From assembly GCA_029204225.1 (NCBI GenBank), contig CM055104.1:54354538-54418537 (forward strand): DNA of 64,000 nt, written 5' to 3'. Numbering within the stretch: position 1 is the stretch's first letter; every line of letters begins with the position of its first letter. Under the pieces are notes generated by a model. It was not told the DNA's origin, made no database searches, and saw only the letters and a program-made list of their open reading frames with translations. The stretch comes from Diphasiastrum complanatum. Taxonomy: Eukaryota > Streptophyta > Lycopodiopsida > Lycopodiales > Lycopodiaceae. Made by a program: the position numbers and the translations under genes. This document shows, one piece after another, positions 1,830 to 58,499 of this stretch.

Positions 1830-2207
1830 CATTAGAGGAGTTCTAAATCCAAAAAAGACCCTTTGTAAAGATTCTTTTTATATTTTTTCTCAATTTTTTC
1901 TTACACATGGACCAATCAAAACACCCAAATTTGAAATCTACGTCACGTAACTTTTTGAGTCCACATTTGGATTCCACACTAAAAATGACATAACTTTTTA
2001 GTGGTAAGTCTAAATTTAGCGAAGTTTGGTGCATTGGAAAGCGCTTAACAAGGGCTTTCCAATGATATGTTATATGACATACTTTTGAGCTACGATTAAA
2101 AAGTTATGGCAAGTCAAAAGTATTAGTGCTATAATATTTTAATAATATAAACTACATCTTGCACGAATTCTTAAAGGGTCTTTTTGGAGCTCAAAACTCC
2201 TCTAATG
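1830..2207 (+). mobile_element. MITE-like element, copy 1
   Basis: The ends are inverted: CATTAGAGGAG at 1830 and its complement CTCCTCTAATG at 2197-2207. The inner arms, around AAAAAGACCCTTT, also mirror each other. The interior matches the element at 25873-26245 in inverted orientation, including TTGGAAAGCGC, the block around ATGACATA and CACTAAAAATG. There is no coding capacity. I could not identify a clear target-site duplication. Confidence 0.75.
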
Positions 2208-2330
2208 CTTATGACAAACATGCGTACACATATTCGTCAATGCCCACACCTCCCCACATCTATTTGATTGAGGAAACTCACGATTCAAAAGCGCAAGTAT
2301 CTTATTCTTGTCATCTTGGTTTTGTTGCTC

Positions 2331-2705
2331 CTAAGGAGTGAATAGGTTATGGCCAAAATATTTGAGAGCAAGGTCGTGCATCCTATTGATGATGACTTTG
2401 CCTTTGGTAATCTTGATGATGGAGCCATCATCTTCTAGATTATTAAACAAACTGGATGATTCCTCCGATGGGATATCCATCGAAGGATTACCTCTATTGG
2501 AATCGGGCTCCTCTTTGTAAAGACAAAGATGTTTCAATCTTTGTCTCTCATCAGGAGCTAGCGAACCATAAAAGTCCGCAATCCGATCGGAACCGGATCC
2601 TCCTCTTGCACTAGAAGAAGATCTTGGTCTTCTCCTAGAACCACTACCATTAGAAGACATTGGGTGTGTAAAGAGGGAGAAAAGAGAGAGATAAAAGCTT
2701 AACAA
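2331..2705 (-). CDS. Unrecognised Ser/Arg-rich ORF, possibly transposon-derived
   Basis: A 124-codon minus-strand frame. The N-terminal third is rich in Ser, Arg and Gly (GSGSRRRPRSSSSARGGSGS) and the middle is acidic (SEESSSLFNNLEDDGSI). I recognise no domain. MITE copy 1 lies just beyond its stop codon. Low-complexity composition and lack of conserved motifs mean it may be a remnant or a chance frame. Confidence 0.25.
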   Translation of the reverse strand: MLSFYLSLFSLFTHPMSSNGSGSRRRPRSSSSARGGSGSDRIADFYGSLAPDERQRLKHLCLYKEEPDSNRGNPSMDIPSEESSSLFNNLEDDGSIIKITKGKVIINRMHDLALKYFGHNLFTP

Positions 2706-2784
2706 ATGTAAAGAAAAAAAAAAGAGCTTGAGAAAAAGAGAAAGCTTGAGAAAGAGAGAGCTTAAGCAAAGTAAAATTTCAAAG

Positions 2785-2787
2785 AGT

Positions 2788-2869
<82 letters not shown>
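2785..2869. repeat. Compound (TG)n(AG)n microsatellite
   Basis: About 13 TG units (2787-2811) run straight into about 28 AG units. The same compound repeat, reverse-complemented, occurs at 48120-48231. Confidence 0.97.
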
Positions 2870-2873
<4 letters not shown>

Positions 2874-4050
2874 TTATAATCACTAACACAATGAAAGCAA
2901 TACACTAACACAATGCAAGCAATAACACTATGCAAAAAACTAGTGAAAAAGGCTTTAAAAAATGCCCTATTTAAAGGATTTTCTAGATTCAAGTTTGCGT
3001 GGCACTGCCACGACAATTTTTGCCACGCGTGGCAAAAAAAAAATTATTTTTTAATGTCGGCGTACTCTGATGGACTGGAAGGTTACAAAATGCAGATTTT
3101 TTTGTGCTCACGGCCTGCAAGGTGTCAAAATGTATTTGTGTGCAAAAAAGTATCATTACTTTAGTTATTAAAGAAAAGGGTGAGAATTCACTTACAAAAT
3201 ATAAAATTTAAATGTCTTGTCTCATTCTTACAAGGACAAGTGAAAGAGAGACAAGACATTTGATGTTTTTATTTTAGAAGACAATTTGTAAATTAATAAG
3301 CATTAAATTTAAGTATTTTACAAGATTATCTTAGAACTTATAAAAGAATAAAGAATAGTATGACATGTTTTAAGTTTTTTTAATCTTTTTGATGTTAGTG
3401 GCATGTAAGAAAATTGTCAGACCCGTGCACCCACCCGAGCCCACCCGAGCCCGCGCGCCCACCTAAGTCCGTGGCTTGAAGTAGTCACGACTACCTTTAA
3501 AAAAAATAGCATGACTTCAAAAACTTTCAAAAGCAAAAACTTCAAAAACTACAAAAACTTTCAAAATCTTCAAGCACCAACCTCTAATCATCAAAAGCAT
3601 CAAATGATCTTCAAGATCAAAGCTCCAAGCGGTACAACTAGTGAGGAAATTCTTCTAGAAAGTTAGAAACTACCAGATCTATGTTCTAAAAATAGTCCGA
3701 CAGACTTGCAACTCTTCCTGTAGCTAAAGAACTATTGCATGCCTGATCCATAACATTCCCAATTTGTTTTGAGGCACACACACAAATCCACAAGAAAGAG
3801 TTCTAGGACAGAGGTTCTGGTCCCAGAACGTCCCGATCCGGGACGGATTCTTCCCGGATTGCGTTTGCTGTGTAATAGATCCTAACACCATAGTAGGGCA
3901 AACACTAACTGATCCACCAAACCTTGCCTACTCCTTGATAAGGAGCAAGCCCCTCCTAGCCCAGTGTGAGGCCTAGTTGCATGCATACTGCCAAGTGTCA
4001 GCCATGTGGCACTGACGTGGCCGACTACACGTCAGGACCCAACGTAGGGA
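2870..4050. other. Non-coding stretch with a small hairpin; possible solo LTR
   Basis: There is no supportable gene. A perfect 14-bp inverted repeat (AAATGTCTTGTCTC, 3210-3223 and 3248-3261) encloses a 24-nt loop. A palindrome TTGCCACGCGTGGCAA lies near 3020-3035. From about 3417 (TGTCAGACCC) to 4050 the sequence is GC-richer and could be a solo LTR, but I found no second copy to confirm this. Confidence 0.4.
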
Positions 4051-5076
4051 CCTAGATCCCTAGTGAATGTGGAGACAAAGTCTATTAAATATAGAAAGTT
4101 GTAGATTTCCCACATGATATGTAAAAAATATTGCAATTGGCATGTGATATTATGCATAGTGCTCAGGACAAGGCTAAGCAATATGCCGATTTTCAGAGAT
4201 CTTCCAAAGATTTTTAAAGTTGATGATTGGGTATATCTTAGAAAATCCAAAAGATTCTAGGACTATGCGTACTGGAAAGCATTATAATTTGTCTACTAGA
4301 TATTGTAGATCACTTCACACTATTAAGAAAATTATTTCTTTAGCTTACGAATTTGATTTGAGGACAAGTCGACTGCTCATTCAGTGTTTCATGTAAGCTG
4401 ACATAAACTAAGTTTACATGAAGGTGATATAGTTGGATCTGATGAGGATCTTACCCATTTGGAAGATTTATCACTTAGTGTATCTTTGGAACTTGAAAGA
4501 GTACTCAAGATCATAGGCAAACTTGAATTGAAAAATCATTCTATCTCTGAGTGCTTGATTAGGTGGAAGGGTCGGATTGAGGATGATGATTCGTGGGAAA
4601 GAGTTAAAAGCATAAAGTAGATATGAGCCTAGTTTTCACTTTTGACGACAAATGTGGTTCAAGGGGGGAAGAATGTTATGTCCATGTACCAAAAACTCAT
4701 CAAGATGACACAAAATAAAATTGTTGTCTACAGGTGTGGGCAGTACAACTATTGACTCTCACCAAGTTTGAATCCCAAATATTCAACCTAAAACTTGATT
4801 TGAACTCACCCTCTCAAGACTAGCTTTTTAGCAATGATGGATAGTACTTTGATCAATGATTATTCTCTTGTACTTGGCTCTAATACCATGTTGAAAATAT
4901 ATTACAAAGGACCGTAAATGAGCCTACTTAAAGCTCCAAGAGTGATAGATTGATTGACACACCTATCCAATGCAAAAGTAGTCACCAAATCTTGATCTAG
5001 ATTAGCAAATTAGGATCTTACAACCAAGAGCAATAAAATAGAATGATCAAATATGAAAATATGAAGCCTCCGGTAG
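4051..5076 (+). repeat. Tandem duplication unit 1 (gypsy integrase end plus LTR remains)
   Basis: This unit is repeated at 5160-6178. It contains a broken Ty3/gypsy integrase C-terminus and chromodomain region (to about 4620), related to 39231-39713. A purine tract AAGGGGGGAAG and an LTR start TGTTATGTCC at 4674 follow. The unit then passes into the inner end of a minus-strand family A LTR, with a primer site (complement of TGGTATTAGAGCC) near 4890. It is a fossil with several breaks. Confidence 0.75.
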
Positions 5077-15960: not shown

Positions 15961-16522
15961 ACAGATCGATATTGAATATCGATCAACAGTATCATTTGCC
16001 AAATATGGATCCAGTAATCATCGTATCATTTCTAAGAATGATACGACAGATCGATACCGAGTATCGATTTGTGGTATTAATCTCATAAATGATACGACAG
16101 AACGATATCGGGTATCAGTTTGCCATATCAATCGAAGAGTGTGATACCACAGATCGATACCTGGTATCAATTTGGAGTATCAACTTGAGAGATGATACCA
16201 CAAATTGATACCAAGTATCGATCTGCGGTATCAATTTGTTAGATTGATACCGCAGATCGATACCCAGCATCAATCTGCCGCAACAAGCTTACAAATGATA
16301 CATGAGATTTGTTCCGGATAAATAACTCTCGTTACATTTTACTTATTGATACGAAAAATTGATACCGGGTATCGATTTGCGGTATCAAATTGAAAAATTG
16401 TACAAGAGCAATATTCCTCATTACAATCTCCAGTATAATTTGTCAGATTGGTATGATCCGTAGTATGAAACTATCAGAATGATACGACAGATCGATACCT
16501 GGTATCGTTTTGCGGTATCAGT
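15961..16522. repeat. Array of about eight palindromic units, GATACC/GGTATC type
   Basis: Units of about 39 bp begin near 15961, 16039, 16091, 16143, 16195, 16246, 16348 and 16479. Each is an imperfect palindrome: arms GATACCGCAGATCGATACC and its complement around one central base. Spacing is about 50 bp in the tight part, with degenerate spacers. The same unit recurs at 18336-18722. The units lie upstream of and inside the methyltransferase-like gene and nowhere else in the window. Confidence 0.9.
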
Positions 16523-16748: not shown

Positions 16749-19700
16749 GAAGGATTAGTTACTCCAAAAGTGACGCATAAGAAGCGTAGGATTGGGCTTC
16801 TTGGTGCAGATGGGGACTCGCCATCAAAAGTATCTAGCGTCTGTAATACTATACAGCCAAAAAAAGCAAATCAAGCAGAATCTTCTGAAGAGATTAGTTA
16901 TCACTCATATGAGGCATATCAGTGGGTTGTGACTACAAAAGATGACAAATTGTGCTTGATCATGTCCTGAAATATAGGTGTGGTTCCGTTTGGTGAATCC
17001 AAAATGCTGGGTCAAGTACGTGATATTTACTATGATGGGGAGGACGTCTCGAAAATATTGTTCAAGACTGAGAACAAAGGCTCATTCAAAGAGCTATGTT
17101 TTTGTGAAAGCAATTGCAGCGTTGATAATTGCCTCCCTAAGATCTTAAGCTTGGAGATATCTGAGTGTATAGGGAATGATTCAAATCCGATACTTTTTTT
17201 TGCTAAGTACATGACAAGCAGGCTTTTGCCTCAGTAACTGCTGTAGAAGAGTACATCGTTCAACCATTAGGACATGCATACAACAAGATGTCATGTCTGA
17301 AAGAAAAGGGCCCAATGTCTGCCGATGCTGCAGGGTCAAACCAGGGGACTGATGTGCTTGAACTCCCTAGTGTCGGCCTTGGTGTGGGAGAATTGAACCA
17401 GCAGCAAAACCTGATCCACGAGAAGATCAAGCATGAAAGGTTGGTTAGTCCCAAGACCATGGAGCTGCACATCAAGCAACTGGAGATGCCACCTATTGAT
17501 CCAATGACCAATACAAGACCGCTTGAGGTGAGAGAGCCGCATGAGCTCCATGTTCATAATCTAAAATCGAAGATGATAATCTGTTGGAAAACGTGCTTCC
17601 ATTAATTATAATGTTTGATTCCTCACAATGCAGCAAGAAAGCCTTATTTAAAAGTGGGATGATAAATGAGTATTGATATTTCATTATTGGGGGATGCCAC
17701 TCTGTAGAGACAAGGCGACAACTGGTCCGAGAATATCCGGACTCCCCGTATTTCAAGACCGTCGAATGCAAAATCTACGCAAGATTGACAGAGAGAGAGG
17801 TGAAACTCCTGGCATGGGACCATAACAATGACAATGACTACCGCTCAGGCATGTCATTCGTCCAGAGAATAAGGTATTTCCATAATGAATATCTTGAATT
17901 TCCGAAAACTCATAATCGGGTAGCACCTGAACTGGGAATCCAGTGCTGTAGAGAGATTGCTTAGTATTTGATGAGACGAAAGCCTCTGAAGCCCTGAGAA
18001 AGTATGAGTAGTTGTTCCAGCTTGCATTTAGGACGAGAGCAATATGGAATCTCCAAGATAAAATTTTGTACGTTGTGAAAAAATCGTGAGATGAAAGGCC
18101 AAAGACAAGCAAAAACTAAGGATGACCCCTCTATTGCGCTACGCAAAAAAGATCGTACAACAGACGTCTCAATTAAATTGCTTTCTAGTTATATGAAAAT
18201 CACGGAATGGCGTACAATGCAGAGAAATGAGAAAATTGTGATCTCCATTCTGTCACGGGTGAAATCACTGGACTTGTCCCTGGAAGAGATGGCAAATGAA
18301 TTTGAGCAGTAAGTGTAGAGGTATATTTAACTTAGACACAGATATGATACCGAAAGTCGATACCCTGAAACGATTTGGGGTATCAATCTCATCAAATGAT
18401 CCCTCAGATCGATATCCGATTTTTATTTTTCATGTTTGAATGGATGTTGATACCTCAAATCGATCCTCCGTATTAATCTGAGATATCAATCTCGTCAGTG
18501 ATCTCTCAGATAGATATCGAGTTTCTATTTCTTGTGTTTGAGTGTATGTTGATACCTCAGATCGATACCCGGTATCGATACATAGTATCGGTCGGAGGTA
18601 TCAATGTCATCATATGATCATGCCAATAGAAACTTGATTTTCATCTCCTGTGTTTGAATGGATGTTGATACCTCATATCGATACCCGATATCGATCTTAG
18701 ATATCAAATTGATAGTATCGATGTTTTATTGTTTGAGCATTCTTTGTTTCTTACTTCTTGTGTCGAGTTATTGATATTTGAAATTAAATTTTCTCAATTG
18801 CATATTTTTGTTTTAGGCATAAGATGTATATGAGAATGCAATAGCAGATGATGATTCGACTGAACTGCATTTCTTGGAAGCAAGTCCTTGCAGATTATCC
18901 CCACTCTAGTTCCAAGGAGGCCTTGAAGCAATTCTATATTGCTTTTAAAAATTTTGTGAGTTTGATTATTTTGTTTTTATAAATTGAAGATCATGTTCAT
19001 GGATAATTATGTAGATCTAATTTATACCTGCCAGCTAAGATTGACAAGCTAATCAATGTTTTATATCAAAAATCAAGGGCAATTTCATGTTCTCTTGAGT
19101 TTCCAGTTCTTGGCAATTTTTTGGCTCATATAGATTTGGCCCGGTTAGAGAAGGAGAGAACAAATCTAATGGATGCCAATTTTGCAGTTGATCTTCTCCT
19201 CAGATTATTTTTCTCTCAAAGAGATCCTTTGTGCATTTGGCACTGGCCGTATTCACATGCGATGTGAAGGATATTTTGGATATGGTGCCTAAGAAAGAAT
19301 TCACCCGTGCTATTGCTGATATCCCCTACGGATACAAATTGAAAAGTTCGTCAAATGATGAATCTGCATTTACATATTAGCAAATTTTATAGGTTGTCAG
19401 ATCTTTTAAGGAGTTAACTACTGCATCTTTATGGAGAATACTATTTTTTCATTCCACGAATCAAATTGTTGCAGTTGCCAAGGCCTTAAAGGATGAGACT
19501 CATGGATATGAGGCCATCATTTGGTAGAAAATATGTTAAATAGCAAAATTCTACAATTTTTAATTTATTTATTTTATATTATACTCTATGCTGATCTATT
19601 ATTTTAAGTTTACTCTATTTTTTGTTTTCAAGCACAAAATAAATGTTCGGAATGCACTTGGGGAGCGCCTATTAAGCATCTTTGAGATGATGTCGGTAGA

Positions 19701-20208
19701 CTATTTTTCGTTGTTAGTCGCACGACATTGTCGCAAGGGAAATGCCTCCAATGTGCTCTCTTTTTCTGTTGTTACCCGAAAGCTGCGCTTCACAGATGTT
19801 TTTCAGACTGTGGTTAATCCCTACCTTATTGTGTTGCTGTCATATAAAAATGATTGGATTCTAGACCTTTGTGTTGGTACGGGCACCACTATAGTGTGTG
19901 CTCTGAAAAAAGAATGAAACTGTATTGTTGTGGAGAAAGATGACGTACAGTCGGCATTCATTATTTAACAAGTAGTTTCCATTGACGATCTATCGAATGG
20001 TGATGATGAATTGGGCGCATCTTTCAGCCAGGACAGCAAAAAAGTTCAGGTGACATCTCGAGAGCCACAGCCTCCTCTTAAAGACGAGCTTGGAGATTTT
20101 GCTGATCTCTATGATGAAGAGGTTGCTGGTGGTGATGTGGGTGATGATGGTGATGGGGATGGTCAGCTGCTACCAACTCATATTGATGAGGAGATTTTGA
20201 ATGTATAA
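16749..20208 (+). pseudogene. BAH-like/ParB-like/DNA methyltransferase gene, copy 1
   Basis: A decayed multi-exon gene. First block (16749-17237): a basic start (THKKRRIGLLGADGD), then a BAH-like segment (KMLGQVRDIYYDGEDVSK, FKELCFCESNCSVDN). The ParB-like block (17500-17960) reads LEVREPHELHVHNLKSK, then YFIIGGCHSVETRRQL (the G-G-x-H box of ParB/sulfiredoxin-fold domains) and LTEREVKLLAWDHNNDN. A linker follows (18120-18312). An intron (18313-18816) holds palindromes. The methyltransferase block has a DPPY-type motif IV as DIPYG (19318-19332) and, downstream, the SAM-binding motif I as DLCVGTGTT (19864-19890) followed by a G/E-rich strand. This is the beta-class order (IV before I). An acidic tail ends at 20208. 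DxPY suggests an adenine-type target. Several frame interruptions make an active product doubtful. It could also be a domesticated gene with unrecognised introns. Confidence 0.7.
18336..18722. repeat. Second GATACC/GGTATC palindrome array, inside an intron
   Basis: About five more degenerate units occur here (best at about 18551-18605 and 18665-18715), interspersed with a repeated word around TGTTTGAATGGATGTTGATACC. They fall between the exon ending EEMANEFEQ and the exon starting HKMYMRM. The homologous intron of copy 2 (36381-36480) lacks them. Confidence 0.8.
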
Positions 20209-27720: not shown

Positions 27721-28538
27721 ATGAACATTGCATGTCCGAGCAGCAGTCAAGGTAAAGCATGCCGATGGTGGAGCTAGCTAGCTTAACATTCCTATTTCTT
27801 TGATTAAGTATTATTATCTCCACGTTGTATGTTTCCTTTTCTCTTTTTGGTTTTCTACTATACTTTCTCCTGGTTGCAACTGCTCAATAAGCTCACTTGT
27901 AACGTGTAACTAGTTAGTATCACTGTTCTGTTGCTGAAGTACTTGAATTGGAAAATGTGGGTTCACATACACTAATTTTGATTTTGTGAAGCATTTTAGC
28001 ACAGTTTGGTTCAATCGCAAAGCCTATCAGCAAAGCGTCCACTCAAATCCATGTAAAAGCCTTGGATGCCGTCGTCAGTGTCAACTCTTTCTTCACAGTT
28101 GCAGTCTTCCTAGGATTGTCTTTCGATGTCCCCCAAAAGTCAGCAACCCCAGTATCAGCGTGTGTCCCAGGTGCAAACGTAGTTAAGTATCTTCTGGTTT
28201 TTGAGGTGGTGTCTTTCGGCTGCTTTCTATTTTCAAGTCTTATTGCTCAGGGGATGAAGCTTCGTCTCATTTTCTACAATAGTAGTGATCCTCAGGAAGC
28301 ACAAGCAGTCGAAATCAATCAGAAAATTCTAAGATTTGGCATGATTGCTTCTGCCATGGGATCAACAGCAGGCACCTTATTCTTATTACTATCAATGATC
28401 AATATCATCCAGTTGGAGCTTGGCAGTTGGTCTTGTGGAAAATTTTGGCCACAGAGAGCTGCAATTCCTTTAATAGTCTTGGTTGGAAATGGTGGTATTA
28501 TCTTTATATCATCGGTTTTCTATGCAGCTCTTCACTAG
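27721..28538 (+). CDS. Gene A: four-helix plant membrane protein (MEE60-like, tentative)
   Basis: Two exons, 27721-27751 (31 nt) and 28000-28538, with a GT-AG intron of 248 nt (GTAAAGC...CATTTTAG), give 189 residues. I chose this ATG because the exon length and phase exactly match gene B. The N-terminus is soluble (FGSIAKPISKASTQIHVKAL). Four hydrophobic segments follow, at about residues 35-52, 73-95, 119-144 and 164-188; the tail is only an Ala-Leu-His end. There are no catalytic motifs. The layout and words such as ALDAVVSVNSFFTVAVF resemble a plant-only family of small membrane proteins, which I recall as that of Arabidopsis MEE60. That name is from memory and unchecked; the molecular role is unknown. 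The frame is intact. Gene B is its paralogue (about 85% similar by eye). Confidence 0.85.
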
Positions 28539-32700: not shown

Positions 32701-32871
32701 TCGAGATCCTAAGTTTACAAGCCGATTTTGGACAACGATGTTTGAAAAGCTTGAGACGTCTTTGAGCATGGGTTCGACTGATCATCCGGAATCCGATGTT
32801 CAGACTGAGAGGACTAATCAGATGATGGAACAAATGCTTTATGCATATGTTTCACTTAGGCAATCTCAGTG
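29741..32871 (+). mobile_element. Ty3/gypsy chromovirus, 5' part (gag to integrase)
   Basis: In order: zinc knuckle CFNCGEAGHLAKEC (about 29909-29950), protease LLDSGSTHNFIN (about 30122-30160) and RT from about 30770 with [10 protein letters not shown] (about 31238-31270). RNase H follows (31518-32030), then integrase with HPGVHRTLDLVRRDSFWPK (about 32325-32387) and the catalytic core to 32871. The integrase is then split by a DNA element and resumes at 39099. No 5' LTR is seen. It is a fossil with a handful of breaks; domains are well preserved, so it is not very old. Confidence 0.95.
32868..32871 (+). repeat. Probable target-site duplication, left copy
   Basis: AGTG here and AGTA at 39095-39098 flank the 6.2-kb element. 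Reading across the insertion gives the expected gypsy integrase order, S-Q before the gap and E-K-Y-L-P after it. Confidence 0.6.
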
Positions 32872-33171
32872 AACACGATGACATTTGTTTTGGGACTTTG
32901 ACCTAAAAAAAAGTAATCTTTTTTGGTGTTTTTTAATGGTCCTAGTTTTAGGCCAAAATCATGGATTTTTTTAATAAATCTTTAAATTTTGTTTTTAAAG
33001 AGGCCAAAAAATGCATATTTAAAATATAGAACTACAAGTTTTTTGTTGCAAACTTCATAAAACCATCATAATTACAAAAGAAATAATAATTCAAGAGAAC
33101 AAATGATTTTTGAAACTCGAAATCCCATTGAAATAAAAAATAACTTAAATTATATTTGCACATTCTTTTAT

Positions 33172-34420
33172 TTAAAGTACATCTTCTAAGGAATTTTCAC
33201 TGATGCCTCTCAATTCAGAACTTGACATATTCTCAACACTCTCATTTTCAGCTGATGAAGTGGAAGACCCGTCTTCTTCATCTGAGTCAATTGGCATGTC
33301 TTCCTCAGAATCCGCATCTGATGTTGACAAAAAACCTTGTAAATCAGCTTTTCTCTGTTGATTATGAGTGGAGGATGATGGTTTTTCAAGTAATCCAAGT
33401 CGTTCTTTCAATATAAATATTGTTGACTTTTGTAGATGATTGGTCATTGTTAATTCGAAATTAAATGCCAAAACATCTACATCCTGTAGATTCAAATCGT
33501 CGACTCTTGGTTGATTTTTTGGCAATCTCTTTCTCTTGCCCTTTGGTTCTACTTGGAACATTTCGAGTTCGTACCTTCCCAAAAAAGCATTCATTGAAGT
33601 GGTGCGCAACCAATGGACACGTAGTACTTTTGTTTGATTGCTATTTTGAATAAACCAAGTACTTTGGCAATCCAAAATGGATGTCCTTCATTGTTTTCTG
33701 AAGCTAGAAGTGCAACAAGGCTTCCAATTTGGATTTCATTCAAATCACCGCGCCATTTCATTTTTGCAACTTTTACACTTTGCCTATTCTTCCTTGAGCC
33801 CACATAAATTTCACGTTCCTCACCTTGCACAAGCTGTAGGAAATCATTATCTCAAAGAAGATCTGAAGGTTCGACAGTCGTAGTTGATGTTCCTAATTTA
33901 TGAGGCCAATGAAATTCATCAGTTGTTGATGTATGTGCGAGATTGAGCAAACTGATTTTTTGTTCCTCAAAAAAGTCCATCCACCAATGCTGATCAAACT
34001 CATCAAAAAAATGATAAGCTACTTGAATACTTGATTCCAAAAAAATGAATGAGCCAAATGGATCAATCTCACGATGTTCTCTTTGCACCTTTTGTTCTTC
34101 TAGCAAGGACTTCAAGGGAGACAACACAACAAGCTTGATTTGAGTCAATGAAATGCTAAGCAAAAATCGAACTCCTTCAAGAGGTAGCCACGAAATTGAA
34201 TTTGAAAATAGTTTGTCCCGTAATAATATAATGTTTGATTCGTTACATTTGATTTTAAACTGGTGCTGAAAGCTAATATCATTAATATTAGCTACGCATC
34301 GCTCTGTTTCGTTGGATGCCTTAACATAATCACGAAAATCATATGTGTGTCTGATTAATGACACGTTTGGGTTTGGCACATACGATTCCTGAACAATGCT
34401 TTGTAGCACTGGTAATGAAA
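33172..34420 (-). pseudogene. Partner gene with a possible chromatin-reader (chromo/BAH/Tudor-like) domain
   Basis: Three overlapping minus-strand frames (33852-34409, 33591-33830, 33172-33675) look like one decayed or spliced gene. The N-terminal part contains WLPLEGVRFLLSISLTQIKL and DPFGSFIFLESSIQVAYHFF, with no known match. The middle reads IQIGSLVALLASENNEGHPF, WIAKVLGL, then KVLRVHWLRTT and GRYELEMF. This is a beta-barrel-like pattern (G-x-L-V-A-L, F-W-x-A-K-V, V-H-W) reminiscent of BAH, Tudor or chromo-type readers. The tail is acidic (SDADSEEDMPIDSDEEDG). It is divergent from the methyltransferase-like gene and shares its upstream gap. A transposase function is not excluded. The product name is inference. 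Confidence 0.45.
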
Positions 34421-34559
34421 AAAGTTTTCAGCATTTTCATTAAGATAGCATTTTGAATTTTCCTAAAAAGTTTGTTTTTTTGCAAATTTTTAATTGTCTT
34501 TGATAATTTTTGAAATGTCGAGGATTTCTTTTAAAATTTCGGGGAAACCTCAAGATATT
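34421..34559. promoter_or_regulatory. Intergenic gap between divergent genes, candidate shared promoter
   Basis: About 140 AT-rich bases separate the two divergently oriented genes of the 6.2-kb element. No clear TATA pair stands out; the assignment rests on gene layout only. Confidence 0.3.
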
Positions 34560-37500
34560 TCGTTAAAAGATAAGAAAAAATTCATGTACTATTTCACCAA
34601 AGGGGTCAACAACACAAAGCTGAGAAGCTTGGCAGAGGAGACTCGCAATTCAAAGTTCAAGGAAGATTGATTGCTGATCAACCAGATGAGGATCAAGAAG
34701 AAGATTTTGTGAATATACTTTTAAAGGAGACAGATAAGTCTCGTTCTATTTTCATTCTGAACGAGACTATGATAAAGATCCGACTTTGTCAGGACGAGGC
34801 ATCAAAGCCTATTTTGATAAAGCTCTAGTTACTTTGGTGAGTAATTATAAAATATATTTTTAATCATGTTTGTTTCATGCCTAGCATAGTTGTTATTAGA
34901 TATAAAATTATTTAAACTTTTAGATTTAAGCTTTTAGTCATTATATTTTAAACTTGATTTTTGTTTCTGTCCAAAACATGAAGCAATGCTTTAAAATGAT
35001 TTTAGCTGCTATAGATGAGGGAAAAGATCCGGTCTATTCATTACGGAGTTCAAAAGATGTATCTATTGGACCTCGCAAGCCCGCTTCTACCACTGCTCAG
35101 GTCACAAAGCCGGCCTCTGAAAATATTGAGGATGAAACCGTAGTCGTCCCTCATCCCAAAGAAAAAAGATCTCATAATATTTCTGAGACTTCGCCCACTA
35201 GACCTAAGTCACGCCCAAAGACCATGGCTACACATTACCATAAGTCCATCTCTTTTGCTGAAAGCAAAAAAGCCGCCACTGAACCATCTTTGTCGCTACC
35301 TGGTGAATCCATCCGCCCATTACTAGACAGCTCCGAACTTGCCAAATTAAGAGAGGATATCCATAAAACAAAAAAATAAAAAAAACAACTTTAATTTTAG
35401 ACATAAATCAGTGTGGTAGGCCACTTGTAGACCCAATAACAGGAGACAGGCCAATGGAAGTTAGAGAGCCTAATGAAACACATGTACATAATTTAAAAAT
35501 AAAATTTAAAGATCATACACAGACCATAGTTACTCTCTTTATTGTTTTGGTTGCTCCCAACGAATGCAACGATGTTGGAAATTTTGATTTTTCTTTATTA
35601 GATTCATATCATTTTTTTGTTCTTGGGTGGATACACAGTTTACAAGCTCAAAAATAATTATCTCAAGAATATCCCCATATCCCAAGCTTTCGAACTGTGA
35701 GTGCCATTGCATTTGCTGGCCCGACAATGGAAGAAGCGAAATTATTGGCTTGGGACCACGATATTGATCAGGACTATCGGATGAAGATGACCGTGATACA
35801 AAGAATTCGTTTTTTTTACAAAGAATACATGAGAGTCTCCAAAGCAGGAGATGTGAATCAACTTGAGCTGAAAGCACTATGTGCTCAAGAGACAGGCCTA
35901 TCTTTTGATTCAAAAAATCCTACGCAGAGCCTTCCTAAATACAATAATTTTTTTCAGCTTATTTTTCGTAGTGGCTAGGTAATTTGTTTGGCTATGCTCG
36001 TCATGGAATGCTCTGGTCATAATATATGTTATAATCTTTTTAAATTATTTTTATCAAACTAAAATTTTGAGCTCAATTTTAATATTGGTTAAATTTTTTA
36101 TCAATTAATTTTTTTTTTAATTTCAAGTGTGGGCCCTCGTTGATAAAATTTTTGATAAGTGAGAAACTTTTCAAATAAAAGACCAACCTGTTCAGGGTGT
36201 CTCGAAGTCCAAAACAAAAATTGTGAACTCAAACTCTGAAGCCAATCCCTACTGAAATGAAAATATCATAGTGGAAGAATATACAAGGGATTAGCTCTTC
36301 AGAGCTAATAATAAATGTTCTTTCAAAATTTGTCGATGGTTTACTTTCTCTGGCAGAAATGAGAAAAGAATTTCAGAGGTATAATCATAATTTAAATATT
36401 TATTTTCATGTACAGATTTTTTAATAAAATGATTTTCATAATTTGGTTGGATTTTTAACAATGATATTTTTTAAATACAGGCACAAATTATTTATGAAAG
36501 TTCAAGAAGTCTTTGTGACAGGGTTAAATTGTCAAGATTTTGATGAGTGTCAGAGGCTTTATCTTCTGAGCAGCCGACATGAAGCCTTGAGTCCATTTTT
36601 TATTTTGTTCAGAGACATGGTATTTATTTCACCCATGCTTAGCATAGGTGCTTATTAAATATTTCTTTTCTATATTCTATGTCTCCTATGCTAAGCATAG
36701 CTTTTTCTTTATTTAATTTTTTTTTTTTTTATAGATTAAGTCTCCTATTCTATTTTACATTTTTTGTCTTCCATGCTAAGCATAGCTTTTTCCTTTTCAG
36801 TCTCCCGAAGATAAAAAAAAACAAAGTCCTTCTAGAGCAATTCAAGAGACATATTCTGAAGGCAAAAGCAGAAAAAAAGGACAGGGAGGGATTGGCACGG
36901 GGTGAGACCATTGAGGAGGAGGATTCATTAGAGACCTATCCTCCCAAAAGTGTCGATGATCAACCATGCTTTTACTCTATTCAGGAGGGTGATTGTAGAG
37001 AAATTTCAAATTTTTTAAGAAAAAGGCCTTATATACTCTGCATCACCGATATACCATATGGATTTCAGATGAAAAAATCATTAAATGATGATACTCCTTT
37101 CAAATTCACTAAAATCCATAGTTTTATGTAGGGCTTAAGTCACAACTTCTCCAATTTTGAGAGTTGTTATTTTTTATTCTTCTTGGCAGTCAGCATCAGT
37201 ACAGAAAGCTCTATTAACTTTCTGTAATGCGAGAATTGAGAATGTTGTGTGGTAAGTTCTTAAGTTCCTGAATTATCAATTCGTATTTTAATTCATAATT
37301 TTATTTTAAAATTAAAATTTTAAATTGATTTTACTTGTAATGTTCCATGTTAGATACAAGCCCAATGTCAAGAACTCGGGAGGAGCTCGACTTTGCAATG
37401 AAATAGAATACATAACCATCGGTTATTATTCTTTAGATGACAAACGTTCGATACTGTATTATAACACTTCCAGACTGACATTTTTTGGAAACTTGTTCCA

Positions 37501-38037
37501 GTATCCAGTTGTGACAAAGAAATTAAAAAATCCAATGACGGATTCCGTGGCTTGTCCCTACCAAAAGCCACAACAATTAATTAATCATTTAATTGATATT
37601 TTTTCTCACCCAGCTGATTGGGTTTTAGATTTATTTATTGATAGCGACACTACAAGCGCATGTGTTGTTGAGAAAGGTTGACATGTTGTAGTAGATTTAG
37701 ATACTAATCTAGTTGATTTTGTAAAAATGAGAATGAAATCTCTTTTGATTTTGCCAGATGAATTATCCGAAGTGAGAAAGAGTTTGGACAACGAGGATAC
37801 AATAATTCCATTGTCCAAGGAACCTCAGCCTCTTGCTAGAGGGAAAATAGGTGACACAAGATAATTTGCTGATGTCCTGGTTCAAGATTACAATGTAGTA
37901 ACTGTAGTCGAGAAAATTGTAGAAGAGGTGCCACTTGATAGTACAATGGCTACTCAAGAAAAAGCAAAAGAAAAAGATATAAATGACATCGATGATTTTT
38001 GGAATAAAAAATTCTCTTTTGTTTTAAAGAATAATTA
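34560..38037 (+). pseudogene. ParB-like/DNA methyltransferase gene, copy 2
   Basis: Multi-exon. The N-terminal exons (34560-34845, 34975-35379) are Lys/Ser/Pro-rich with no domain. ParB-like block: LDINQCGRPLVDPITGDRP, MEVREPNETHVHNLK (35452-35498), YHFFVLGWIHSLQAQK (a degenerate G-x-H box), then MEEAKLLAWDHDIDQDYR. Linker exons: VWALVDKIFDK (36127), the exon ending EMRKEFQR (36380) and HKLFMKVQEVFVTGL (36481). Methyltransferase: FYSIQEGDCREISNFL leads into DIPYG (37048-37062), the usual order before motif IV. A later exon from 37354 holds YQKPQQLINHLIDIFSHPAD, then VLDLFIDSDTT at motif I (37622-37654). The two motif I glycines are replaced by Asp, so SAM binding is probably lost. The tail (SKEPQPLARGKIGDT) parallels copy 1. 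Introns have GT-AG ends. It has a few interruptions. Confidence 0.7.
36625..36810. repeat. Repeated palindrome TATGCTAAGCATA inside an intron of copy 2
   Basis: ATGCTTAGCAT near 36637, and CTATGCTAAGCATAGC-like words near 36688 and 36770 occur in the intron between the HKLFMK exon and the exon beginning near 36830. A weaker CTAGCATAG lies at 34883. They are embedded in T-rich sequence. Confidence 0.7.
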
Positions 38038-38321
38038 AGTTTATATTTTTTGATGTATTGTGTTTTGAATTTCTTTTTATTGATTTAATATTTTTAAATT
38101 TATTTTTTAACAATTTAAAGTTTAAAATTTGGAATATTTTAAAAATCTTAACATTGATGATTATTACCGAAAATTAAAATTGTAATGATTTGTCAAGTTT
38201 ACAATATTTTAATTTTAGATGTGTTTTTATAAGAAATAAAAAAAAAAATTTAGAATTTTTTCAAGGTGATTTAGATATTATCACAAATAATTTAATCTCG
38301 ATTATTGTAAAGCTAAAGAAG

Positions 38322-38606
38322 TAGATGGCGGACGCGGACCCGGGTCCGGACGAGCGTCCGAGTCCGCGTCCAGAAGCGAACGCCTCCGGGTTTTTTTTTT
38401 TATTTGTAGTTTTTTTTAAAAAACTACTAAAAAAAATGGCGTCCGGACCCCCGGACACGTGCGTCCGTACTCGTCCGGATCCCCGAATGCATCTGTTTTT
38501 TTTTTAATTAAAAAAAAAAATTGGACGCATCCAACCCTGCGTCCGGGTTGGAACGCCGGACATGGACGCGGACGCGAGCAATCCGACCCGGACCCTCATC
38601 CTTGTT
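38322..38606. mobile_element. GC-rich foldback/MITE-like insert
   Basis: An island of CG-rich sequence in very AT-rich DNA. The left part has GGACGCGGACCCGGGTCCGG; the right part carries the inverted GGACGCGGACGCGAG and GACCCGGACC words. Two inner palindromes (GTAGTTTTTTTTAAAAAACTAC around 38406-38427; TTTTTTTTTAATTAAAAAAA around 38496-38520) separate the blocks. It is probably nested in the 6.2-kb element. No ORF is credible. Confidence 0.65.
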
Positions 38607-39094
38607 GTAAAGTAGTTTTATTTGTGTTTATTTAATTTTTAAATATATAATAAACTTACGTGGGTGTGAGTAAAGATTTTCAAAATTTTAAAATTTTAAA
38701 AAATATTGATTCAAATTTTTAACATAATTTAAAAAATATTTTTTTCGATACAAGAATTGTAATTTAGAAAACTTTTAAAATTCCAAAAAAAAAATACTAT
38801 AATTTTTGTTTTTAGTAAGTAAAAAATATTTTTTAGGTATTTTAGTTGTTGTGTATCTAATGATTTTACTTTAAATAGTATTATTATTTGATATAAGCTA
38901 ATTTTAAGTTATTTATGAAAATCTATTGACCAAATTTTTGTAGCTTAAATTATTTTCTTGCAAAATACAACATTTTTTTACCATTACAATATATTTATTT
39001 GAAGGATTTAGAATTTGGATACTTTTAAAAAAAATTAATAAATTTAAAAAAAATAGGTCTTCAAATCATTTCTCTTTTTTTTGGTCATCATGTT

Positions 39095-39789
39095 AGTAGG
39101 AGAAGTATCTTCCATTGATTGAGTTTGCTTATCATAGTAGTAAGCATTCGGCGCTTATGTATGATTTCAACCTAGATCTCCGATAACGGTTGAAACTGAG
39201 TCGATTAAAGTTCAGAAAGTAGCAGATTTCTTGTGTGAAATACAAGAAATGTTACAATTAGCACTTGAAAATGTTTTAAGTGCCCAAGATCGGGTAAGAC
39301 ATTTTGCTAATCTGAAAAGATCGCCTCGGGAGTTTCAAGTTGGAGATTGGGTGTATCTTAGAATTCCGAAGGATTCTAAGGTAATGCGCACTGGGAAGCA
39401 TTACAAACTATCTACTAGGTACAGTGGACCTTATAGAATCTTGAAAAAGGTTGGATCTTTAGCTTATCGATTAGAGTTACCAGAGGGAACTAAGGCTCAT
39501 CCTGTGTTTCATGTAAGTCGCCTTAAGATGAGTTTACATGAGAGAGATCATATTGGTTCTGGTAATAATCTAGATTCGTTTGAAGACTTATTTGAGAGAA
39601 TTCCTTTAGAACCTGAAAAGATTCTTGATACAAGATCCAAACGATTGCAAAATTGGGATGTTATTGAGCATCTGGTTCATTGGAAAGGATATTCTAATTA
39701 TGAGGATTCATGAAAACTAGAAAGTAACCTATGGAAGAGTTTCCTGGACTTTGAGTTCTGACGACAGAACTAAAATAAGGGGGGAGGTA
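39095..39789 (+). mobile_element. Gypsy chromovirus continued: integrase end and chromodomain
   Basis: It resumes exactly after the 6.2-kb element. 39231-39713 encodes the integrase C-terminus (FQVGDWVYLRIPKDSK, HPVFHVSRLKMSLHERD) and a chromodomain (VIEHLVHWKGYSNYEDS), which places it among chromoviruses. The polypurine tract AAGGGGGGAGG is at 39777-39787. It is a fossil with few breaks. Confidence 0.95.
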
Positions 39790-42245: not shown

Positions 42246-42359
42246 TATCCCCATAGCTCCTTTTTATATCTTGATGATATCTTGCAATCTTGTGTGTAGA
42301 ATGCTCATATAACATATTTTGATATTCAATGTATAGATACCTATGCAAGCTAGAAAGGA

Positions 42360-43180
42360 GCTCTCCATTGATTATCCTCATGTATAGTCTTTTAGGCAAG
42401 TTAGTGTCATAGTTTTTGCTGAATTGACAGTTGAGGAAGCCAAGCTGCTTGTTTGGAATTATAATATCGACCAATATTATAGATTAAAGATGACCGTTAT
42501 ACAATGAGTCAGATTTTTTCATAAGGAGTACCTGAGGCTTCACAAAAAAGGAGATAAAACAAACATATAATTGAAGTGTCATTGTGCATAGGAGACAGGG
42601 CTACTATTTGATGAAAAGAATCCAGCCTCCTCACTTACAAAATATGATAATATTTTTCAGTGGGCCTTCTGGAAAGGGCAGGTAATTTATGTTTTGATGA
42701 TTTTTTTTGTTATTTCATGTTTTTAAATCAAAATAAAATCCTTTAACAAAAAATTTTTGTTTCAAATTTGGGACCTTGTCGATAAAATTTTGGACAAATG
42801 GGACAAATTTGAAATAAAGGGACATCTTCCAAAAGGGTCGTCCTCCACAAAAAAAAAATCCACACAATCTACTCTTGCCCCCATCCCCCAAGATATGGGG
42901 ATATTATAGTGGAGGAATATGCAAGGCATCTCATCTATCAGATGTTGTTCTGACTACTAGAGTTGTTGATGGACAACTCAGCGTTGCTGAGACAAGAAAA
43001 GAATTTCAAAGGTGATTTTGATTTTTAATTCATGATTCTTACTTTTAACTCATATGCAAAAGGCTTGAATCTAATCATTGATTTTTTTTCAGACACAAGC
43101 TTTTCATGACAGTGCAAGAGGCCATGGTAAAGAGCCTTAATTGCAAGGATTGGGAGGAATGCCAAAGTCTGTACCAATAG
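42360..43180 (+). pseudogene. ParB-like/DNA methyltransferase gene, copy 3 (partial)
   Basis: Only the middle of the gene survives. 42385-42680 encodes YPHVYSFRQVSVIVF, VEEAKLLVWNYNIDQYYRLK and FDEKNPASSLTKYDNIFQWA, matching copy 2 at 35665-35980 block by block. After an intron, WDLVDKILDKWDKFEIKGH (42773-42830) and SVAETRKEFQR-like sequence follow (to about 43012). Another intron leads to HKLFMTVQEAMVKSLNCKDW (43093-43152). The methyltransferase half is absent. The left edge abuts copia remains and the right edge a CACTA remnant. It has several stops. Exon edges agree with copy 2, supporting the splice assignments there. Confidence 0.75.
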
Positions 43181-57709: not shown

Positions 57710-58499
57710 CTAGTGAAGAGCTGCATGGAAAACGGATGATATAAAGATAATACCACCACTTCCAACCAAGACGATTAAGGGAATTACTCCTATTTTTGGC
57801 CAAACACCTCCACAAGACAAACTGCCAAGCTCCAACTGGATGATACTGATCATTGATAACAGTAAGAATAACGTGCCTGCTGCAGATCCCATGGCAGAAG
57901 CAATCATACCAAACCTTAGAAATTTCTGACTGATTTCGACTGCTTGTTCTTCCTGGGGATCATTGCTGTTGTAGAAAATGAGACAAAGCTTCATCCCTTG
58001 AGCAATAAGACTTGAAAATAGGAAGCAGCCGAAAGCCACCACCTCAAAAACAAACAAATACTTAACGGTGTTTTCACCTGGGACACACGCTGCTGGGCTT
58101 GCTGACTTTTGGGGGGCGCTGAAAGATAATCCTATAAAGACTGCAACAGTGAAGAAAGAGTTGACACTGACAACTGCATCCAAGGCTGTTATATGGATTT
58201 GAGTAGCCCCTTTGCTGATAGGCTTTGTGATGGAACCAAACTTTGCTGAAATCCTTCAGAGAAGCAAAATTTGTGTAAGACATTAATGGGTGAACCCGCT
58301 TTGACCAATTCAAGTATTTCACCAACGTCAGAACAGTCATACTAGCTATAAAATTCAGATCAATAAGCAATTGCAACCAGAAGATAGCTTTGTCAAAAAT
58401 CAACAAAAAAAAAGAAAAAATCAAGACGTAGGCATGGAAAGATGCCCACCACCATAAGCATTCTTTACCTTTGCTGCTGCTGGAAGATGAATCGCTCAT
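57710..58499 (-). CDS. Gene B: four-helix plant membrane protein (MEE60-like, tentative)
   Basis: Exon 1 is 58469-58499 (31 nt, MSDSSSSSSK plus one base), the intron is 58246-58468 (GTAAAGAA...GGATTTCAG), and exon 2 is 57710-58245; 188 residues. The splice gives SSSKAKFGSITKPISKGATQ in frame, identical in structure to gene A. Hydrophobic segments lie at about residues 35-52, 72-94, 118-143 and 163-187. An upstream ATG pair (about 58527-58532) is in another frame that soon fails, so the 58499 ATG is preferred. The frame is intact with no lost motif. The role is unknown; it presumably sits in a cell membrane. The adjacent DNA is all mobile elements. Confidence 0.85.

Follow-up and report, generated by a model that had tools for sequence, protein, structure and literature searches.

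In the plant Diphasiastrum complanatum, a stretch of 64,000 nucleotides (GenBank assembly GCA_029204225.1, contig CM055104.1, forward-strand positions 54,354,538 to 54,418,537; hereafter the window) holds a 6223-bp copy of a DNA transposon, at 32872-39094, that interrupts the integrase of a gypsy element. The copy contains the remains of two divergent genes, namely the C-terminal part of a DUF7869 transposase on the minus strand and, on the plus strand, a multi-exon gene for a putative ParB-like region joined to a DNA methyltransferase. It is very probably a dead member, with an internal deletion, of a cut-and-paste family in which a DUF7869 DDD transposase with a BAH-like end stands divergently beside a ParB-like/N6-N4 methyltransferase gene; copies of this family reach 9.4 kb. 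Comparison of sequences establishes that the family and its ends are real, that the element is inserted in gypsy, that it has a methyltransferase and a DUF7869 gene, and that the window copy has decayed. From left to right, the locus comprises the following features.

32868..32871, no strand: left target-site duplication AGTG, from flank comparison.
32872..39094, no strand: whole transposon copy, delimited by ends common to many genomic copies and by 4-bp target duplications.
32872..32882, plus strand: left terminal inverted repeat AACACGATGAC, from end pairing and flank comparison.
33172..34427, minus strand: C-terminal DUF7869 transposase remnant, with an in-frame stop at 33852-33854 and a frameshift near 33600-33690.
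33425..33765, minus strand: predicted BAH-like domain at the transposase C-terminus, with approximate limits mapped from residues 681-796 of the P0010 model.
34421..34433, no strand: internal deletion point, at which 2.3-3.8 kb of other copies are missing.
34515..38035, plus strand: divergent multi-exon ParB-like/DNA-methyltransferase gene, with approximate exon limits from frame reading, Pfam and copy alignment.
35379..35921, plus strand: ParB-like region, with an in-frame stop at 35655-35657 and GWIH where other copies have GGIH.
37048..37065, plus strand: methyltransferase motif IV, DIPYGF, intact by motif comparison with other copies.
37316..37678, plus strand: methyltransferase exon matching N6_N4_Mtase (Pfam PF01555, E 2.4e-9).
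37628..37648, plus strand: methyltransferase motif I, here DLFIDSD, by motif comparison with other copies.
38313..38601, no strand: insertion of 289 bp nested in the element and not present in other copies, with a possible TTGTAAAG duplication at its edges.
39084..39094, minus strand: right terminal inverted repeat GTCATCATGTT, from end pairing and flank comparison.
39095..39098, no strand: right target-site duplication AGTA, matching the left one at three of four bases.

The 11-bp ends of the window copy pair at ten of their 11 bases, and inward of these terminal 11 bp clear similarity was not found. Outside them, the integrase frame reads ...LYAYVSLRQSQ as far as the left flank and resumes as EKYLPLIEFAYHSS... 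after the right one, as a preliminary description of the window had read it. A left-end query of 541 bp, in which base 13 corresponds to 32872, was searched in the host genome (the D. complanatum assembly, 1.74 Gb in 5176 contigs), and the best 40 of 1573 candidates were scored; the 39 matches other than the window's own are 93-96 % identical and start at query base 11-13 in 32 cases and at base 3-9 in the other seven. With a right-end query in which base 535 corresponds to 39094 (best 40 of 1096 candidates scored), 29 of the 39 other matches end at base 535-537 and ten run 3-11 bases further. Since the matches of other copies start and stop at the same edges, the boundaries of the element are not due to chance. 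The empty site was sought with a query made of the two 160-bp gypsy flanks joined by one copy of the duplication; of 3404 candidates, 40 places were scored, and every one matches across the joint with 79-89 % identity over 279-343 bp, a 41st row being a second short piece that adjoins one of the 40. The scored gypsy relatives are therefore without the insert, and the alternative that the 6.2 kb belonged to gypsy ancestrally was dropped. Both outcomes that the preliminary description had named as contrary to an insertion, i.e. unrelated edges in other copies and an insert shared by all gypsy relatives, were looked for, and what was found was common edges and 40 of 40 scored relatives without the insert.

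For a broader view of the family, 23 genomic regions of 7-10 kb were retrieved, eight of which have both ends and, together with the window copy, make nine two-ended elements of 1488, 5442, 6206, 6223, 7389, 8259, 8794, 9145 and 9353 bp. Exact 4-bp target duplications flank six of the nine (TTAA, AGTT, TTTT, TTCC, AACT and TTTA), three of four bases agree in two (the window copy and L018) and two of four in one (L019); no common sequence is evident among the duplicated target sites of the nine. The family combines inverted ends, duplications of fixed length at independent sites and empty sites in relatives of the target, the features by which cut-and-paste transposons with terminal inverted repeats are recognized, and the earlier reading of the locus as a plant mobile element with near-identical ends and a 4-bp target duplication, inserted in gypsy, is borne out by these multiple copies with the same ends. 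Five pairs of copies at different places share the flank or are almost identical in sequence (L011/L026, L031/L037, L033/L034, L035/L036 and L038/L039); these are perhaps assembly duplicates or segmental copies, and raw copy counts are inflated by them. Within the window copy, the nested insertion (approx. 53 % G+C, its possible duplication 8 bp long) is later than the transposon insertion, and 36 of the 39 other right-end matches start exactly at 38602, directly behind it.

The identity of the plus-strand gene product as an N6/N4-type DNA methyltransferase is, on sequence grounds, solid, the PF01555 match being accompanied by motif IV ahead of motif I, which is the beta-class order and agrees with the class first proposed for it. 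Motif IV reads DIPY in 18 of 21 entries compared and motif I reads DLFSGSG in 11 of 23, with variants in the rest, some entries being duplicates of one place. The DIPY motif tentatively suggests adenine rather than cytosine as the target base. In the window, the exons are spread over three frames with several stops and frameshifts, and motif I is ruined, so that the enzyme would hardly bind S-adenosylmethionine; because of the stops, the frameshifts and the ruined S-adenosylmethionine motif, the gene is a dead copy. The joined plus-strand protein has only two database matches at E <= 1, P0002 and P0003, both on the methyltransferase part; in the host genome, P0002 has 2423 candidates, of which 100 were scored and yielded 140 matches. 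ParB-like or methyltransferase sequence is present in 14 of the 23 regions that were fetched. When the methyltransferase part is compared as a profile with three phage methyltransferases, it reaches 98.4 % with E 8e-15. Among prokaryotic genome contigs, 49 stretches fit the pattern sought for relatives of the methyltransferase and none was confirmed, while viral contigs yielded one locus (L009), a plain methyltransferase adjoining a DNA-polymerase-like frame. An intron of the gene also contains two 48-bp direct repeats (36663-36710 and 36748-36795, 83 % identical), which include a palindrome-like ATGCTAAGCAT; matching sequence is also present in copy L042.

The region ahead of the methyltransferase is harder to classify. 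In the better copies it shows a VLGGIHSLQARKQL signature followed by an EEAKLLAWDHN stretch, which by eye resembles ParB. Searches of Pfam (20 of 20 alignment rows), PHROGs, NCBIfam and PDB sequences found no ParB in this region of the family, a first hhalign run gave 0.4 %, and a structure model was poor (predicted local distance difference test score 49), with all Foldseek matches at E 6 or worse. A wider phage profile was then built from eight ParB-type N-termini, a ninth, without a ParB_N match, being excluded; against it, hhalign places the GG-H signature on the phage GGH with a score of 23.9 (P 0.0039, probability 8.6 %), which exceeds 60 of 60 column-shuffled controls, the best of which scored 20.1. 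Among the three phage methyltransferase relatives, the ParB_N match is above the cut-off in one, just below it in another and absent from the third. The phage ParB-methyltransferases (e.g. those of Streptococcus phage Javan69 and phage IMGVR 517045) resemble the product of the window gene in having N6_N4_Mtase behind an N-terminal ParB_N match, but are only about 25 % identical to it, have a single exon and come without a transposase.

A further parallel is found in the brown alga Ectocarpus, whose Sola1-1_Ec32 element, according to the available part of PMC12477816, carries on the strand opposite its transposase a 1104-aa protein with a ParB-like part and an N4C/N6A DNA methyltransferase; the same part of the paper mentions, with reference to Iyer 2011 and the Bostrychia genome, similar proteins in transposons of green and red algae, and suggests that each such protein binds the transposon that encodes it and marks it. 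Both elements thus pair a transposase with an opposite-strand ParB-like/methyltransferase gene, but as far as this description allows, by which alone they were compared, Sola1-1_Ec32 differs in its length (21.5 kb vs at most 9.4 kb) and in its host, a brown alga rather than a plant. Taken together, the ParB-like nature of the N-terminal region is weakly supported by sequence comparison, and of the earlier proposal that ParB is joined to the methyltransferase, the methyltransferase half stands and the ParB half is left with mostly negative searches and one alignment above its shuffled controls. It is rather unlikely, if well short of negligible, that the segment is an unrelated stretch outside the ParB/sulfiredoxin fold and the enzyme a plain orphan methyltransferase; the negative database searches and first hhalign run speak for that view, but the wider profile aligns at the right place, two of three phage relatives have the domain ahead of the methyltransferase, one of them just under the cut-off, and a protein of the same layout is called ParB-like by its authors in the excerpted text on Ectocarpus.

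Two further relics in the window belong to the same kind of gene. One, at 17357-20115 on the plus strand, is a second, diverged ParB-like/methyltransferase relic with 31-38 % protein identity and the motifs GGCH, DIPYGY and, as motif I, DLCVGTG; no DUF7869 match was found beside it, and tandem repeats lie near it at 16023-16278 and 18381-18566. The other, at 42343-43016 on the plus strand, is a third ParB-like relic, approx. 64 % identical in DNA to copy L042 and, by its sequence, apparently from another subfamily.

Codon positions were compared both within and between subfamilies. For the within-subfamily test, rows that cover less than 55 % or differ by less than 2 % from a kept row were dropped, which reduced, for example, methyltransferase exon 2 from 22 to 17 rows and the transposase C-terminus from 31 to 23. 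In all five coding stretches compared, just as in the two non-coding controls, singletons and shared changes alike lack an excess at the third position, and the copies of the subfamily therefore decay neutrally. In addition, eight chosen pairs, five between subfamilies and three within, were tested against equal positions, with P values uncorrected for that choice. The strongest excesses of third-position changes are between the methyltransferases of L042 and L013 (52/35/86 at the three codon positions, P 8e-6) and between the ParB-like parts of L042 and the relic at 42343-43016 (39/15/57, P 6e-6); pairs with the relic at 17357-20115 are weaker (ParB-like P 0.0014, methyltransferase P 0.019). 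The transposase C-terminus compared with L013 gives P 0.047, a weak sign of constraint in this sequence test, and the three within-subfamily pairs give P 0.54-0.72. Other distant pairs are without a third-position excess, e.g. the ParB-like part of L017 (71/56/65). From the excess between some subfamilies it follows that the ParB-like/methyltransferase gene was constrained while those subfamilies parted.

These data bear on what the methyltransferase does for the element. An intact enzyme, guided to transposon DNA by its ParB-like part, might there write N6-methyladenine (6mA) or N4-methylcytosine (4mC), and the mark could conceivably help the element either by making it the preferred substrate of its own transposase or by shielding it from host silencing through 5-methylcytosine (5mC) or heterochromatin. 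Such self-marking is a possible role for the methyltransferase, to which we lean only tentatively. The competing view is that the enzyme is a passenger, once captured and since hitch-hiking, with no role in the spread of the transposon. The neutral pattern within the subfamily, along with the many exons of examined copies that have stops, frameshifts or motif changes, weighs on the side of a passenger, but between some subfamilies the ParB-like and methyltransferase parts show a third-position excess, motifs IV and I recur among the entries at the frequencies given above, and transposons of a brown alga, and reportedly of green and red algae, have the same gene pairing (PMC12477816, in part); the passenger view is accordingly somewhat improbable.

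On the minus strand, the statement of the preliminary description that no recognizable standard transposase is present does not hold, as the gene is the C-terminal part of a DUF7869 transposase. The window remnant matches Pfam PF25273 at E 3e-5 and 24.1 bits over profile positions 125-184 of 192, just missing the 26-bit cut-off, while copy L042 scores 156 bits and P0001 180 bits; it is 33 % identical to P0001 over 82 % and 77-86 % identical to the transposase of L042. For P0001, the host genome has 5261 candidates, and the 81 that were scored yielded 89 matches, the long ones approx. 41-50 % identical to it. DUF7869 has three conserved aspartates (D-D-D) and a predicted integrase/mariner-like fold, i.e. 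the RNase-H fold with three acidic residues of DDE/D transposases. All three catalytic stretches are spanned in 14 of the 23 regions, and counterparts of D46, D127 and D169 are kept in 11 of these 14, although one of the 11, L012, has a stop amid the third stretch; some DUF7869 sequence, at least from the C-terminal part, is present in all 20 first-batch regions. PF25273 proteins are also encoded by Adiantum, Ceratopteris, Riccia, Chara, Mytilus, Branchiostoma, Clytia and others; these are of the same family as the transposase of the window element, and the transposase motifs are kept across kingdoms. Sequence and structure prediction together support DUF7869 as the DDD/RNase-H-fold transposase of the transposon family, and modelling suggests that its C-terminal end is BAH-like. 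The look of the divergent gene that had been described as reader-like fits this predicted domain, but the gene is part of the transposase rather than a separate reader.

Relative to copy L042, the window copy lacks L042 positions 1969-4303 (2.3 kb) between window positions 34421 and 34433, and copies that align on both sides of this point have 2.3-3.8 kb there; the deletion junction is common to none of the fetched regions. The missing stretch comprises the N-terminal part of the transposase, in which all its catalytic residues lie, and the intergenic space of the divergent pair, and what is retained is the part behind the catalytic core, just under half of the protein, including the BAH-like region. 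The window copy therefore has no catalytic transposase and could move only in trans. Of the two sources of transposase first envisaged, a novel enzyme or supply in trans, the former fits the family, which encodes its own DUF7869 enzyme, and the latter the window copy. The transposase would cut at the 11-bp ends and insert with a 4-bp stagger, and the window copy would have moved only on the enzyme of other copies, or would already have been stuck. That the element instead relies on an unrelated transposase acting in trans, with the DUF7869 gene as cargo, is very improbable: the absence of the catalytic part from the window copy speaks for it, as does the fact that DUF7869 has no described function and is named in none of the papers searched, but the DUF7869 sequence recurs in every first-batch copy, has the catalytic triad and fold described above and is found in many copies in ferns, liverworts and animals, and a frame-by-frame reading, made for the single copy L042, showed no other transposase except a copia-like piece behind its right part.

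If DUF7869 is the transposase, its BAH-like domain may tether it to particular chromatin. A bolder proposal, that a ParB-guided self-mark other than 5mC (6mA or 4mC) and a BAH-like reader on the transposase jointly steer the element around host silencing, strikes us as doubtful.

By its described features rather than by its sequence, the window element is probably Sola-like. The available portion of PMC10741241 characterizes Sola by a DDD transposase, target duplications of 4 bp, inverted ends that are 11-1124 bp long and a total length of mostly 2-9 kb, and records it in Physcomitrella; a table in the accessible part of PMC9033089 likewise lists Physcomitrella Sola1. The family studied here has 4-bp duplications, a DDD transposase and ends of 11 bp, the shortest Sola value, and these features fit the description; it is therefore filed as probable Sola-like, but its BAH-like C-terminal domain is absent from that description of Sola, as far as the available portion of PMC10741241 goes. 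DNA-modification enzymes are also aboard the TET/JBP-bearing transposons of fungi (PMC12730594, in part) and the DNMT-bearing retrotransposons of dinoflagellates and charophytes (PMC5890265, in part), but there the chemistry is oxidation and 5mC writing, respectively, and not 6mA/4mC. Among the matches listed, literature searches for such a methyltransferase transposon in plants or other eukaryotes gave only PMC12477816, and plant cases may be in print. The paired arrangement of transposase and ParB-like/methyltransferase gene is already published for Ectocarpus Sola1; the recognition of DUF7869 as a transposase that ends in a BAH-like domain may be new, as may the abundance of the family in such a plant. 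Divergent ParB-like/methyltransferase transposons are extended from algae (brown described; green and red reported) to a plant host, in which they are numerous, and DUF7869, a Pfam family so far unexplained, probably functions as a DDD transposase whose end is BAH-like. The family is also a concrete candidate source of 6mA/4mC in a plant; if self-writing is true, the genome of a plant would bear an adenine or N4-cytosine mark made by a transposon.

An Rfam scan of the window at gathering scores gave no match. Elsewhere in the window, two similar open frames, at 27990-28538 on the plus strand (182 aa) and 57710-58255 on the minus strand (181 aa), lie inverted approx. 30 kb apart, have the look of membrane proteins and are probable host gene duplicates.

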